A DNA stretch of 64,000 nucleotides from Microbacterium schleiferi (GTDB lineage Bacteria; Actinomycetota; Actinomycetes; Actinomycetales; Microbacteriaceae): assembly GCF_020781975.1 (NCBI RefSeq), contig NZ_JAJGNI010000002.1, positions 124,001 through 188,000 on the forward strand, in the 5' to 3' direction. A program made the translations under genes and the position numbers. The notes beneath the pieces are model-generated. The model made no database searches. It was not told the DNA's origin and worked only from the letters and a program-made list of their open reading frames with translations. This document shows, in pieces, positions 12,949 to 60,340 of the stretch. How positions within the stretch are numbered: position 1 is the first letter of the stretch; every line of letters starts with the position of its first letter.

Positions 12949-14028
12949 TCAGAACCGGGCGACCATGGCAACCTCGCGGTCCGTGGCCTCGAACCCCAGC
13001 CGGCCGTAGAGACTGTTAGCTCCAGTCGGGCTCTCGGTGTCGACGTCAAGGTTGACCTTCTCAAGTCCGGCATCCCGTGCCGCCGTGAGCAGGGCCGTGA
13101 TCACCGCCGGGGCGAGCCGCCTGCCGCGATAGTCGCGAACGACACCGATCAGCGCGACGTAGGCCGATGTATAGCCCTGCACCTCCCAGTCATCCTCGTT
13201 CACGGTAGCCAAAGCCATCGCCACCACGCGGTCGCCGTCCACCACGACGCGCGAGAGGTCGTCGCGGAACTGCGAACCGCTGACGAACCGTTCCCATCGC
13301 TCCGGCGGCGTCTCCAGGCTCCCCCAGTGGTCACGGAAGGCATCATTGCGCGCCACACGGGTCGCATCCCGCCACTGCGGGCCGAAGGTCTCGATCCGCA
13401 GGGCCGGGGATCCGGCATCCAGCGGCACCTCGGGGATCGGGTCGCTGAGGTCGCGAAGCATCGTCGTAAACCACCGCTCCTCGGGCATCCCGCGCCGCGC
13501 ACCCAGCGCGCGAGCCTCAGCGTCGTGCTCGTACGCGTGAAGGAAGATCGCACCCGGAAGCCGGGCATCCGTCCGCGCTAGCTCGGTCTGGGCGGTCTCG
13601 TACTCCCAGCGCAGCACCTGCGTGCCGACACCGCGGCGGCGCCACCGCGGGTGCACCATGCCGGTGCAATAGACGTACACATGCTTGTCCTGCGACGGAT
13701 GCACCAGGATGCCTGCCATGGCGACAAGTTCGCCGTCGGCGGCGAAGCCGAGTCTCGTGTGAAGCTCCGGATCGATATGTGAGAGCTCGAAGATCTCCTC
13801 GACATCCTCGCGCGGCGTCAACCACGTCGGATGATCGACCCTGTCGCAAGAGTCTACGAGCGCCACCATCTCGTCGAGGTCCGCCCGGGTCGCGGGGCGC
13901 CAGGTGGCGACATCCGGATGCTGGATCTCATCGACGGTCTCGGGCGCTCCGACACGCTCTGACAGCGGCCGCGCATCACTCGGCGTGGCGTTCTCAGGGA
14001 TCGGTGCAGGGGCGGTGCTCTCGTTCAC
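12949..14028 (-). CDS. Tandem-GNAT N-acetyltransferase
   Basis: 359 aa from a GTG at 14028. Two GNAT folds are seen: residues ~45-200, with the acetyl-CoA binding loop HPRWRRRGVGTQVL, and ~215-359, with VVRDYRGRRLAPAVITALL and the C-terminal ANSLYGRLGFE. Double GNAT proteins in actinobacteria include the mycothiol synthase MshD, but this one lacks an obvious match to MshD and is better left as a general acetyltransferase. It lies between rplQ and truA and between repeat copies B and C. Substrate unknown. Confidence 0.88.
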   Translation of the reverse strand: MNESTAPAPIPENATPSDARPLSERVGAPETVDEIQHPDVATWRPATRADLDEMVALVDSCDRVDHPTWLTPREDVEEIFELSHIDPELHTRLGFAADGELVAMAGILVHPSQDKHVYVYCTGMVHPRWRRRGVGTQVLRWEYETAQTELARTDARLPGAIFLHAYEHDAEARALGARRGMPEERWFTTMLRDLSDPIPEVPLDAGSPALRIETFGPQWRDATRVARNDAFRDHWGSLETPPERWERFVSGSQFRDDLSRVVVDGDRVVAMALATVNEDDWEVQGYTSAYVALIGVVRDYRGRRLAPAVITALLTAARDAGLEKVNLDVDTESPTGANSLYGRLGFEATDREVAMVARF

Positions 14029-14056
14029 CGTCCCACCCTACGCGCCGCCGCCAAAG

Positions 14057-17621: not shown

Positions 17622-18620
17622 CTAGCGCGGAGGACGGATGCCGAACTCGGCCAACCGCCGGCCGAGCGTGACCGGCGAAGCGAGGTGCTGCATCCCCCAC
17701 CGAACCAGCGGGCGGTGGGTGGTCGCGCGGATCCAGTCCTCGCGCTCCTTTTCCGCGCGCACCACCTCCCACGGTGTGCGTTCGCCACGAAACTGCGCAT
17801 CCGTGTACTTGCCCTCACCGTCGAACTCGCCCCATGCCTTCGCGTCGTCCAGCCCGAAGTCGACGAAGTACAGGTGGGACGAGTCGGCGAGCCGCACCTG
17901 AAGCCGCGGGCTAGCAAACCCGAGGTCATGCAGCAGCAACCTGCTCATGCTCTCACCGGGTAGCTGCGCGCGCCCGTCTGCGAAGGCCATGATCCACCGC
18001 GCTTGACGGATGCCACGTGCTCCCCGCGCGCGGGCGATACGCTCCTCCATCGCGGTAGCCCATGTCGAGGCTGCACCCTGGTCATAGACCCGATCTTCGG
18101 GATCCCACGCGACCAGCCGCAGCGCGGCATCCGCGACGGCCACCGCACTAGCCAGCGGCAGGGTACGCGCAACGTCGAACACCGTGCGCTCGAGGGACGT
18201 GCACGGAATGCCACCGATCACCACGATGTCATCGTCCGGCACGCTGACCTCGTGTCGGGCTACGCCCCGGGCATGCCGCACGACACCGTTGTGGTGGGCG
18301 TCGCTGACGTGTACGGCTTCAGGAACGTGCCGAAAGAGGGGCAATCCCCAGAGCACCGCCGCCGACGCGTGCGAGAACGGCGCAGCGGATGCCTGTCGCC
18401 GCGAGTGCACCGCCGCGATCGTCCGTAGATGCCTGTCTTCGATGAATCCTTGCGCGTCAGCGGCTCGCGCGTAGCGCCCCGAATGGAGCCGGATCAGCTC
18501 GCCATCCGCATGCTGCGCGGCGATGGTCGCCGCTGCGCTCTCGCGCTCGAGCCGTTCGCGCGTGAGGATCGCCGCACGCGCGTCCCAGACCCGATCGGAG
18601 CTCGGCGGTACGACATCCAT
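17622..18620 (-). CDS. PD-(D/E)XK nuclease-like protein with AbiEi-type N-terminus
   Basis: 332 aa. The first ~200 residues include a winged-helix-like segment ([29 protein letters not shown]) and the block [12 protein letters not shown] ... [26 protein letters not shown], a layout often labelled AbiEi-like antitoxin. The C-terminal ~110 residues resemble DUF559/Vsr-type nuclease folds: GESMSRLLL (first Glu), VDFGLDD, and EFDGEGKY (acidic-x-Lys). It is a paralogue of the gene at 38620; both carry [12 protein letters not shown]. No toxin gene is adjacent. It sits within the ribosomal locus upstream of infA, bracketed by repeat copies D and E, suggesting insertion. Nuclease activity is inferred from motifs only. 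Confidence 0.75.
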
Positions 18621-38622: not shown

Positions 38623-39594
38623 CTCTGCGCGAAGTGCCGGGTAGAGCCGGATCTCCCGCAGATACTCCACGAACTCGTCGAAGCACTGCATCTGTTCGAA
38701 GCCCCACCGGTATGGCTGCCATCCGGTCGCCGCTCGAATCTTGCGCTCACGCTCCGCCTGCGCAGCAAGAACGTCGTCGCGGTGACGGCCCCGCAGGATG
38801 TCGCCATCGCTGTACTTCACCTCACCGTCGAACTCGCACCAGAGCCCGGCATCCGGCCACGCGAAGTCGAGCAACGCGTACTTCCCACCGCCCAGTGCCA
38901 CCCGGTATTGCAGTTCGGGTTTGCGGATGCCGAGCTGAGCCATCCAGAGCCTGCTCACGCTCTCGCCCGGAAGTTGGGCACGTCCGTCCGCAAAGCGCGT
39001 GACGAATCGCGCCTGGATGATGCCGCGGGCGCCCGGGTTGGCGAAGACACGAGCGCGGACGAGGGCGCGGCATTCCTCGGCGGCGGCGTGGTCATATTCG
39101 TTCGTTGTCTCATCCCACCCGGCCAGCCGGAGCGCCGCATCGAAGCAAGCCACGGCGGTTTCTAACGACTCCGTGCGGATGACGTCATAGACAGTTCGAT
39201 CGAGACTCGTGACGCGCATCCCCTCCCGCTCAACGATCTCGCTCTCGTCGAGCGGCGCGAAGTGCCACGTCACGTCGGATCCGTTCCGGCGCGGATGTTC
39301 ACCGAACAGGGTCATCGAAACCCGATTCGTGCCGGTCCGGTAGAGCGGAAGCCCGTGAAGAGCAGCAGCGGTGGCGTGTGACCAAGCTCCCGATCGCGTA
39401 CGTCGACGGCCGTCGACGGCCAGCGCGCGCAAACGAAGGCGCTCTTCCGCGTAGACGGCATCCCAATCGGAAGCCAGGACGAGCGCGCCAGGACGCAGGG
39501 AAGCGAGGCGCTTCCCTGCCACCCCGCGACGCGGCAGCCCGATGTCCGTATCCGAGAGGCTGAACAGCTGCGCTGGTGGACGGCGACGAGTCAT
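38620..39594 (-). CDS. PD-(D/E)XK nuclease-like protein, paralogue of the 17622 gene
   Basis: 324 aa from the ATG at 39594; an ATG at 39603 adds three residues. The N-terminal part has AAALHGLPLYR and TSLDRTVYDVIRTESLETAVACFDAALRLAGWDE, aligning with the gene at 17622. The C-terminal part has [39 protein letters not shown] and then an Arg/His-rich helix: conserved Glu, Asp, then E-x-D-x-E-x-K as in PD-(D/E)XK/DUF559 nucleases. It lies between rpsJ and the tuf region and is bracketed by two tandem-repeat arrays in opposite orientation. AbiEi-like antitoxin is the alternative label, but no partner toxin is present. Confidence 0.75.
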   Translation of the reverse strand: MTRRRPPAQLFSLSDTDIGLPRRGVAGKRLASLRPGALVLASDWDAVYAEERLRLRALAVDGRRRTRSGAWSHATAAALHGLPLYRTGTNRVSMTLFGEHPRRNGSDVTWHFAPLDESEIVEREGMRVTSLDRTVYDVIRTESLETAVACFDAALRLAGWDETTNEYDHAAAEECRALVRARVFANPGARGIIQARFVTRFADGRAQLPGESVSRLWMAQLGIRKPELQYRVALGGGKYALLDFAWPDAGLWCEFDGEVKYSDGDILRGRHRDDVLAAQAERERKIRAATGWQPYRWGFEQMQCFDEFVEYLREIRLYPALRAE

Positions 39595-57658: not shown

Positions 57659-57821
57659 GGGGATTACCTCCGTGGGCCCGGGCGGGGCACTATCCTTGTC
57701 GTCAGGTGAAGCGTTCGGTCCTCCCCGAAAACCAGCGCGTCTCGCACCGCATCGAGCGGGGACACGCAGGCACAGCCGACCACCATATGAGGGCAGGGGG
57801 AATCCAAGAGCGCAACCACCA

Positions 57822-57850
57822 ACTATACGCGTTCCGGCACGCCGTGTCCA
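57822..57850 (-). promoter_or_regulatory. Predicted rpoBC promoter
   Basis: Minus-strand TGGACA (-35), 17-bp spacer, TATAGT (-10); 5/6 and 5/6 matches, leaving a leader of about 155 nt before rpoB. rplL is not upstream in this window, so rpoBC appears to be transcribed from its own promoter here. Confidence 0.6.
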
Positions 57851-57896
57851 GCGGGATTCTTGACGAGTCGAAATTCGTGCGGTATAACCAGCGATC

Positions 57897-59558
57897 TCAG
57901 TGCTGTGTCGCGTGTATGAAGCGGATCGTGGCGCCCGGCCCCGCCTGTGCGAGCAGGTCGAGATCGGCATCCAGAACCGTGGCGATCACCGGGTAGCCGC
58001 CGGTCACGGGACCGTCGGCCAGCAGGATCGTGGGAGAGCCCGACGGTGGCACCTGGATCGCCCCCGGAACCATCCCCTCGCTCGGCAACTCCCCGGCATC
58101 CGTGCGATCCAGCCGCGGCCCCTCCAGCCGCATCCCGACCCGGTCGGCAGCAGCGCCGACAGTCCACGTCGCTTCGAACAGCGCGGTTCCCGACGCCGGA
58201 GTGAAGGCATCCTCGCGGGGTCCGGGCACGAGGCGGACGACCAGATCGGCCGGCGGGGGACTCCAGGGCGCCAGATCGGATGCCGGGATCTCGTCGACCG
58301 CGAGCGCCCCGCCGGAGAGGACTGCGTCGGCGCGGAGGGGTTCTGGCCCGAGGCCGGCGAGGGTGTCGGTAGCGGCCGAGCCCAGGACGCGCCGGGCCTC
58401 GATGCCGCCGCGAACGGCGAGGTACGCGCGAACGCCGGCCGTGAACCACCCCTTCCGCAGGCGCTCACCGCGCCGCCACAGCTGCGCCGCGCCGTGGTCG
58501 ATGCCGCGTCCGTCGATGGTGAGCTCGCCCCACGCGCCGGCCACGGCGATCCACACGTCAGCGAGCGCGGTGGCTTCGAATCCGCCCGCCGTGATCTCCA
58601 GGCCCGCCGCGCCCTCGGGGTTCCCGACGAGGCGATTGGCGGTGCGCAGGGCCGCGCGGTCGAGGGCGCCAGAGACGGAGACGCCCAGCGACCCGTGTCC
58701 CGGGCGCCCGGCATCCTGGACCGTCGCGAGCAGCCCCGGCGCCTCGACCCGCAGCACGGGACCACTGCCGGCATCCGCCTCCACTCCGCCTCGCGCGTGT
58801 GCGGCGGTTTCGTGCGAGTGCTGCGCATTTGTGCGCAGCGGACGCACGAAACCGCCGCGCTCGAGGGAGGGGCCGGACGCGGGGAGGTCGGCGACCTCGC
58901 GGAATCGAACGCGCATGCCGGGGCGTAGGAGCGCGGGGGATGCGGCATCCGGGTCGAACAGCGGGGCGGAGGTGGTGCCGATCAGCCGCCATCCGCCCGG
59001 CGTCGATCGCGGGTAGGCACCCGAGAAGCTCCCGGCAAGTCCCACCGAGCCTGCCGGGACCCGCGTACGCGGCGACGCGAGGCGAGGCACGTCGAAGGGC
59101 CAGTCCTCGCTCACGAGATACCCGAAGCCAGGCGCGAACCCCGTGAAGGCGACCGTCCAGGTGGCCGCCAGATGAGCAGAGACGAGGTCAGCGGAGTGGA
59201 TGCCGAGGAAGGCCGCGGTCTTGTCGAGGTCGGGTCCGTCATACCGGATGCCGATCTCGACATCCGTGTTCCCGTCCACGGCCGCACGCGCCGGTACGTC
59301 AGTCACCGCGAGGGCATCGGCGAGACTCTTCTCGATCCAGGCGCGCACGACCGAGGTGGCTACCTCGCGCGGTGCGAACCGCACGAGGACGGTGCGCGCG
59401 GCAGGGACGAGATCCACGACGCCCGCGGGCTGTGAACTGGAGAGTCGCTCGCGGAGCGAGATGACGACCCGCAGCGCCTCGGCGGGGCTGATGCTCTCGG
59501 GCACCTCAGCGAGCAGACCCGTGTCGCCGAAGACTCGGACCCCGGCGCTGCTCACCAC
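57897..59558 (-). CDS. pxpBC: 5-oxoprolinase subunits B and C fused
   Basis: 553 aa. Residues ~1-230 match PxpB/KipI ([33 protein letters not shown]). Residues ~265-553 match PxpC/KipA ([49 protein letters not shown]). With PxpA the complex opens 5-oxoproline to glutamate with ATP. B and C are normally separate, and fusion is known in actinobacteria. The linker (~240-265) carries an in-frame nested palindrome at 58801-58858. The start, GTG at 59558 or 59555, overlaps the pxpA stop. The C-terminal active residues look intact. Confidence 0.93.
58801..58858. repeat. Nested palindrome inserted in frame in the pxpBC linker
   Basis: Outer arms GCGGCGGTTTCGTGCG (58801-58816) and CGCACGAAACCGCCGC (58843-58858) are perfect complements; inner arms TGCGCA (58822 and 58832) form a second tier. 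The DNA is translated on the minus strand within the linker between the PxpB and PxpC domains. Confidence 0.9.
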
Positions 59559-60307
59559 GGCGCTCGCACTGATATTGACGCAGCATCCAGGGCCGCCCGC
59601 ACCGCACGAGCCGCCGCAACCGACCCTGGCGAGTCGCCGTGCAGGCAGAGGGAGGCAGCGCTCACCGCGATACTCGTGCCGTCAACGGCGACGACGGTGC
59701 CCTGGCGTGCCAGGCGGACGGCCCGGATCGCGGCGGCATCAGGATTCTCGAGAACCGCGCCGGGCTCGCCGCGGGGGACGAGCTCTCCGCTCGGCGTGTA
59801 GCCGCGGTCGAGAAACGCTTCAGCTACGACCTCCAGACCGTGCTCTCGCGCCGCCTCGGAGATCTCGCCCGGCATAGCGAGGATCGGCAGTCTTCGGCCC
59901 AGCTGACCCGACAGATCTGCCACAGCGGCGGCGAGCGCCGCCGCGTGCGCGGCATCCGTGCGAACAGCGTGATACAGCGCACCGTGGGGTTTGACATACC
60001 GGATGTCGGCGCCGACGTCCGCGAGAGCATCCAGCTGCGCAGACACGGTGCCGCGAAGCTCGGCCGTCGCCATCGCGAGCGGCAGCCTGCCGAATCCGGG
60101 CCTGTCGGGGTAGGAGGGGTGAGCGCCGATCACCACCCCGAACCGGGCAGCCCGTTCGACAGCCTCAACCATGGAGTCCAGGTCTCCGGCGTGACCACCG
60201 CAGGCGATGTTTGCGCTGGAGATGACGGCGAAAAGCGCCTCGTCGTCAGCGGTAGGCACCCCGTCGACCGTTTCGCCGAGGTCGGCGTTCAGGTCGATGG
60301 TCCTCAT
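59552..60307 (-). CDS. pxpA: 5-oxoprolinase subunit A (LamB/YcsF family)
   Basis: 251 aa from the ATG at 60307: MRTIDLNADLGETVDGVPTADDEAL, SANIACGGHAGD, GAHPSYPDRPGFGR, YVKPHGALYHAV and LDRGYTPSGELVPRG. Supplies the hydrolytic TIM-barrel of the oxoprolinase complex. The stop overlaps pxpBC, so the two make one operon. It is divergent from the spermidine-synthase-like gene with only 33 bp between starts. Confidence 0.95.
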   Translation of the reverse strand: MRTIDLNADLGETVDGVPTADDEALFAVISSANIACGGHAGDLDSMVEAVERAARFGVVIGAHPSYPDRPGFGRLPLAMATAELRGTVSAQLDALADVGADIRYVKPHGALYHAVRTDAAHAAALAAAVADLSGQLGRRLPILAMPGEISEAAREHGLEVVAEAFLDRGYTPSGELVPRGEPGAVLENPDAAAIRAVRLARQGTVVAVDGTSIAVSAASLCLHGDSPGSVAAARAVRAALDAASISVRAPW

Positions 60308-60340
60308 GCGACCACGGTACGCCCGGTCTACGGTGGATGC

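Follow-up and report, generated by a model that had tools for sequence, protein, structure and literature searches.

The window, by which we mean the whole 64-kb stretch of DNA analysed here, carries a fused gene for 5-oxoprolinase subunits B and C on its minus strand, and the reading frame of this gene runs through a long palindrome. The features at the locus are as follows:

57897–59558, minus strand: fused pxpBC (5-oxoprolinase subunits B and C), with Pfam domains CT_C_D (PxpB) at residues 7–211 and CT_A_B (PxpC) at residues 291–547
59552–60310, minus strand: pxpA-like gene (LamB_YcsF, Pfam E 8.9e-78), given for context only
58797–58862, no strand assigned: 66-nt palindromic element, 22 codons in frame 0 of minus-strand pxpBC; exactly 66 nt in models R1 and R2; 26 of 31 pairs
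58799–58860, no strand assigned: hairpin predicted by RNA folding, with an 18-bp outer stem, a 2x2 internal loop, a 9-bp inner stem, and a 4-nt loop (G-U pairs included)

The palindrome in the pxpBC linker

An earlier sequence-only reading of this locus had described a 58-nt two-tier palindrome at 58801–58858. This structure is real, with perfect 16-nt arms, a 3x3 mismatch, inner arms of 8 nt, and a 4-nt loop, and its extent alone needed revision: the natural unit is 66 nt long (58797–58862), 4 nt more on each side. In a consensus-free scan of the 66-mers of the whole 64-kb window, this unit formed 26 of 31 pairs and the runner-up 20, and the best 66-mer in simulated DNA (five order-2 Markov runs of 64 kb) reached at most 21. 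RNA folding of 58781–58878 gave −72.4 kcal/mol (z = −8.2), and none of 200 shuffles folded to an energy as low; no Rfam family matched positions 57800–59800 at E ≤ 1. As had also been noted, the palindrome sits at the join of PxpB and PxpC and keeps the frame: pxpBC is a single ORF, and 22 residues of its inter-domain linker are read from the element.

We compared the locus with pxpBC of related genomes, a check that the sequence-only reading had proposed. A pxpBC match was present in 46 of 58 genomes (own genome included), in 30 of them as one match spanning both domains, and the linkers varied freely among relatives. When the repeat model was run against the pxpBC loci of 28 relatives, only G010, whose linker holds a 22-residue element, matched at E ≤ 0.01. 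The closest relatives found, G257, G296, and G349 (79–83% DNA identity in pxpBC), share with the window genome the element's place in the linker and its frame; G257 and G296 match the repeat model, and the G349 copy (E 0.73 only) was placed by alignment.

The number of pairs out of 31 was 26 in the window genome, 22 in G010, 21 in G257, 19 in G296, and 15 in G349. The window copy is the most perfect, and its left arm differs from those of G257 and G296 at four pairs, where the differences complete Watson-Crick pairs, as templated correction of a quasi-palindrome would. A conserved peptide with synonymous changes that break the pairing, a pattern named beforehand as telling against a palindromic element, was not seen: relative to G257, 11 codons have changed, 9 of them non-synonymously, and the pairing stands at 26 versus 21 of 31. 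The pxpBC linker of G154, another species, holds a palindrome unlike this one, its arms about 25 nt long (GTGAGCCTCCAGCTGGTCGCCGAGA...; L133), and that of G019 holds a long tandem protein repeat (QPAANRARQQDGNDQGRG...; L058), another expansion at the same tolerant place.

Dispersed copies and sister genomes

The window genome (Microbacterium, 3.02 Mb in 34 contigs) was searched at the DNA level, as had been suggested for its intergenic regions, and yielded further copies of the palindrome that align without gaps at 66 nt. With a covariance model, the element was found at no fewer than 12 distinct places, each exactly 66 nt long; this number is a lower bound, because 150 of 1790 candidates were scored. 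Across the genus, it was detected in 7 of 59 genomes in a first survey and in 40 of 295 with a broader model (17 candidates scored per genome), own genome included in both counts, and a few matches in other species are 64 or 67 nt long. Among 22 distinct copies, changes on both sides of a pair occurred at 20 of 31 pairs (70 cells), versus at most 13 pairs (23 cells) for slid partners, a result that leans towards the structure because the copies were found with a model of that structure.

Four copies in the window genome are known to be coding: besides the pxpBC copy, a cytochrome b561-like gene contains two and the N-terminal tail of scpA one. All are read in element frame 0 as 22 residues (e.g., ESGSSVHPRRIDEPQVHETAAH). 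Gene context was assessed in a set of 81 items, 60 of which came from places listed in the 295-genome survey; one item lies at an edge, one copy is included twice (L032 and L307), and several copies flank the gene family described below. Three of 80 items were called inside genes, versus 27% of random window positions by the same classifier; it finds only this share of random positions in-gene and overlooks the copies in scpA and the cytochrome gene, so that the count of 3 is a minimum. The third of these calls, L024, is a possible coding copy in frame 2, and the frame may be spurious. As a separate observation, GGATGCC or GGCATCC occurs within 50 nt outside 7 of the 12 own copies (L009–L020), versus 12.3% of random positions.

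Some of these copies differ between sister species. The rplT and scpA copies are absent from all three sisters compared, and the katG copy is absent from both of the two compared; the rplT copy adjoins a separate hairpin that is common to the sisters. Gain in the window lineage is the simpler reading of these absences, and the comparison of sister genomes thus speaks for short copies that are mobile. The miaB–miaA copy is missing in G257 through what looks like an internal deletion, and no target-site duplication was noticed.

A gene family flanked by palindromes

Pairs of copies about 1.1–1.2 kb apart led us to an element-flanked gene of about 320 codons at two different sites; one such pair (G091 C13) and G153 C1 hold different content between the copies. 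We looked for core homologues of this gene (at least 46% identity) in 22 of the 39 other element-positive genomes and in 18 genomes that were negative in the first survey. They were found in 15 of the 22, the other 7 being without a full core gene, and in 2 of the 18, both of which do have elements beside the gene. The palindrome model matched 17 of 18 core loci, on both sides at 16 (weakest matches, E ~0.008); the 18 exclude second core-like copies in G299, G245, G017, and G091, and the one locus without a palindrome match is L105. The same model matched none of 16 distant-paralogue loci, and a consensus-free scan found 66-nt palindromes also beside some distant paralogues.

At E ≤ 1e-30, the A4 profile detected the family in 161 of 297 genomes and 62 of 94 genera of the order. 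A named sample, consisting of the best 80 of 250 loci, includes Microbacterium, Labedella, Mycetocola, Cryobacterium, Frondihabitans, Naasia, Frigoribacterium, Curtobacterium, Arthrobacter, Rathayibacter, Agromyces, Rhodococcus, and others. Flanks and control windows were available for 77 of the 80, and at 68 of these 77 the two 300-nt flanks of the gene were more alike than the best control window (mean score 38.3 versus 13.8, p 3.9e-14), without use of a consensus. In a further sample, which was drawn from the A4 profile search and repeated no locus of the first, flank likeness exceeded the controls at 27 of 28 loci (p 4.2e-6), or at 26 of 27 when the truncated and unreliable L371 was left out. 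When the flanks of 57 other genes served as the reference, the 95th percentile was exceeded by 65 of 79 loci from the best 80 and the maximum by 28; the highest-scoring of these control genes (43) has another palindromic repeat on either side. The flank similarity at these 79 loci was mainly direct in 38, mainly inverted in 13, and even in 28. The palindrome beside the gene of Labedella endophytica is itself dispersed, with 50, 3, and 35 matches in three Labedella genomes (27, 3, and 20 places when merged by eye).

Two distant members of the family lie in the window:

17634–18437, minus strand: distant AbiEi-like/Vsr-like family member (36% identity to P0001, E 2.4e-19; overlapping A4 profile match, E 2.7e-71)
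38656–39531, minus strand: second distant family member (31% identity; A4 profile E 7.4e-58)

The left and right flanks of the first do not match clearly. Beside it are GAACCCACA units similar to the CGAACCCACACG units of a different palindromic/tandem repeat, which stands on both sides of the ORF at 12949–14037 (putative acetyltransferase-like). Tandem CGAGTTGTCC repeats stand in inverted orientation to either side of the second member (flank alignment score 43).

Residues E206, D238, E249, D251, G252, K255, Y256, E274, K275, and R277 are among those invariant in alignment A4 (67 rows). With an AlphaFold2 model of the protein (mean pLDDT 92.7, pTM 0.89), Foldseek placed the AbiEi antitoxin 6y8q first (E 3.3e-4) and listed Vsr at E 0.17. 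By VIA-align, residues 203–313 matched the catalytic domain of I-Bth0305I (3r3p; Z 10.2, 94 aligned, rmsd 2.7) and residues 8–198 matched AbiEi (Z 9.5, 170 aligned, rmsd 7.0); Vsr scored Z 7.7. The catalytic domain of Vsr-like homing endonucleases goes by the name EDxHD. On the strength of the model, the protein reads as an AbiEi-like domain joined to a Vsr/I-Bth0305I-like domain of homing-endonuclease fold, a common fold being no proof of activity. By sequence, the family protein matched no PDB chain at E ≤ 1; P0001 and P0002 had no match in NCBIfam, none in PHROGs at E ≤ 0.01, and none above the cut-off in Pfam, and their PADLOC matches to AbiEi were weak (best E 3.1e-5). Phages gave neither a protein nor a DNA match, and plasmids gave three distant Tsukamurella proteins and no palindrome.

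Among 45 named loci with at least 42% identity, the neighbours are guaB and/or corC in 33 cases and terC and/or a response regulator in 9; the remaining 3 are at other sites. In a tree of 40 rows (39 named loci and the window genome's own, with broken or partial copies left out), the eight terC rows form one clade (support 100/98) that is nested with moderate support among the guaB-site rows, and four labels combining site and orientation need 5 changes, which fits, for the most part, inheritance in place together with one move to terC. The gene unit has thus mostly stayed at its site through descent, and moves and flips have been rare. The guaB–corC unit of L171 lies opposite in orientation to those of its close relatives L166, L170, and L197, as if flipped between its palindromes. 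In G257 and G349, the guaB–corC unit is missing, with 10 and 27 nt between the conserved flanks. An insertion in the window genome is one reading of this, but guaB–corC is where the gene usually sits, in either orientation, and loss in the sisters is therefore at least as likely as gain.

The gene-side palindromes were also compared with the dispersed copies. The best match of 29 of 45 dispersed copies was to a palindrome beside the gene of their own genome (2.8 expected; maximum of 21 in 5000 label permutations, with species kinship uncorrected). For the 10 copies of the window genome, the mean similarity was 47.3 of 66 to its own flanks and 47.5 to the flanks of other genomes; like them, copies in G125 and G153 showed no own-flank preference, and the single G299 copy showed the reverse.

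Origin of the copies and comparison with known systems

The pxpBC palindrome probably represents a 66-nt mobile element in solitary, non-autonomous form, and the larger form of this element would be a palindrome-gene-palindrome unit; our confidence is slightly lower because the window genome's copies show no own-flank preference. According to the structural model, the unit would encode an AbiEi-like DNA-binding domain joined to a Vsr-like nuclease domain. This protein would bind its own palindrome and nick or cut either the target or the hairpin; short copies would then be placed elsewhere by repair or strand transfer, mostly near gene 3' ends, so that the putative nuclease would be what mobilises them. 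Solitary copies could also form by recombination between the flanking palindromes, which would delete the gene. One copy presumably landed in the tolerant linker of an already fused pxpBC, in the frame of all four known coding copies of the window genome, and may have been kept as a 22-residue spacer.

Another trans-acting transposase might instead spread the short copies, with the AbiEi-Vsr gene as a passenger or as a regulator that binds the palindrome. We judge this unlikely: the in-place inheritance of most gene units and the 7 of 22 element-positive genomes tested that are without a full core gene would suit such an enzyme, but family gene and lineage-specific palindromes pair repeatedly across genera, and the window genome has no Y1_Tnp match in a search limited to Y1_Tnp. 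A RAYT was rejected as the mobiliser on the same search (PF01797), which was positive in 5 of 14 control genomes.

Still less probable is a plain host function at gene ends, in which the palindromes would be bidirectional terminators, mRNA stabilisers, or nucleoid sites and the nuclease gene would merely sit among them. Such sequences might explain the orientation of the neighbouring genes, which was resolved on both sides for 53 copies: convergent at 28, codirectional at 20, and divergent at 5. Such sequences fit poorly with a constant length combined with lineage-specific sequence, one gene family flanked in pairs across genera, copies within three genes, and rplT, katG, and scpA copies missing in sister genomes, the first of them next to a hairpin that is separate and that the sisters share. 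The fusion scar offered by the sequence-only reading, in which an intergenic element between pxpB and pxpC became translated once the genes fused, agrees with a palindrome at the domain join but is extremely improbable, because fused, element-free pxpBC is widespread among relatives and the fusion therefore preceded the insertion; the other half of that reading, an RPE-like mobile palindrome in a tolerant site, holds by analogy and agrees with the 12 copies in the genome.

Returning to the mobile 66-nt element, the palindromes flanking genes for probable DNA-cutting proteins suggest a little-known kind of selfish DNA in actinobacteria. We tentatively extend this, with some doubt, to an actinobacteria-wide selfish class in which an AbiEi-like plus Vsr-like endonuclease recognises lineage-specific long palindromes and spreads them, as a second, independently evolved counterpart of RAYT/REP, some copies of which have become translated linkers. 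If true, this second, unrelated partner would give orphan palindromes in GC-rich actinobacteria a home, palindrome spread would become testable in a tractable genus, and a function would be suggested for a large unannotated protein family. The pxpBC and scpA copies are also an example, dated by sister species, of mobile DNA turned into protein spacers. A literature search, with most subscription papers and all bioRxiv preprints outside its scope, returned no paper on the link between gene and palindrome.

In the literature cited here, REPs are 20–40 bp long with GTAG or CGTC at one end (PMC3733652), and REP/REPIN-RAYT systems combine short palindromes mostly outside genes, RAYT gene copies flanked by the same palindromes, and repeat families tied to particular genes (PMC3733652, PMC3116915). 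The same papers tie REP palindromes to RAYT tyrosine transposases, leave a large CGTC class without a known dedicated enzyme (PMC3733652), and describe a RAYT phylogeny that largely follows species (PMC3116915). The layout agrees with that of a REP-RAYT "REPtron": the palindrome is dispersed, lies mostly outside genes, and flanks a candidate partner gene (17 of 18 core loci), its families go with this particular gene, and the phylogeny of the gene likewise points mostly to inheritance in place. In contrast to REP-RAYT, the modelled partner resembles AbiEi plus Vsr/I-Bth0305I and not an HUH tyrosine transposase; unlike REPs, the element is 66 nt long, and by eye its ends in alignment A2 carry neither a GTAG nor a CGTC tag.

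The predicted protein also recalls two other systems. Its predicted C-terminal fold resembles that of I-Bth0305I and other Vsr-like homing endonucleases, and, as with these, the gene is often at one intergenic site with patchy presence. Unlike them, the protein would begin with an AbiEi-like domain, and the gene has borders formed by palindromes and short copies dispersed elsewhere; no intron or intein was seen. The predicted N-terminal fold is like that of the AbiEi antitoxin (type IV toxin-antitoxin), which differs in that here the domain is joined to a nuclease-like one.

RPEs are about 150 bp long, and their in-frame insertion in protein genes adds a peptide (PMC10969869). The element resembles them in being translated in frame in pxpBC, the cytochrome b561-like gene (two copies), and scpA, always in element frame 0. 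Compared with RPEs as described there, it is 66 nt rather than about 150, has few copies inside genes, occurs in another phylum, and has a candidate partner gene. By analogy, the element would work like a REPtron in its spread and like an RPE in its translation, and by the features compared it belongs to neither.
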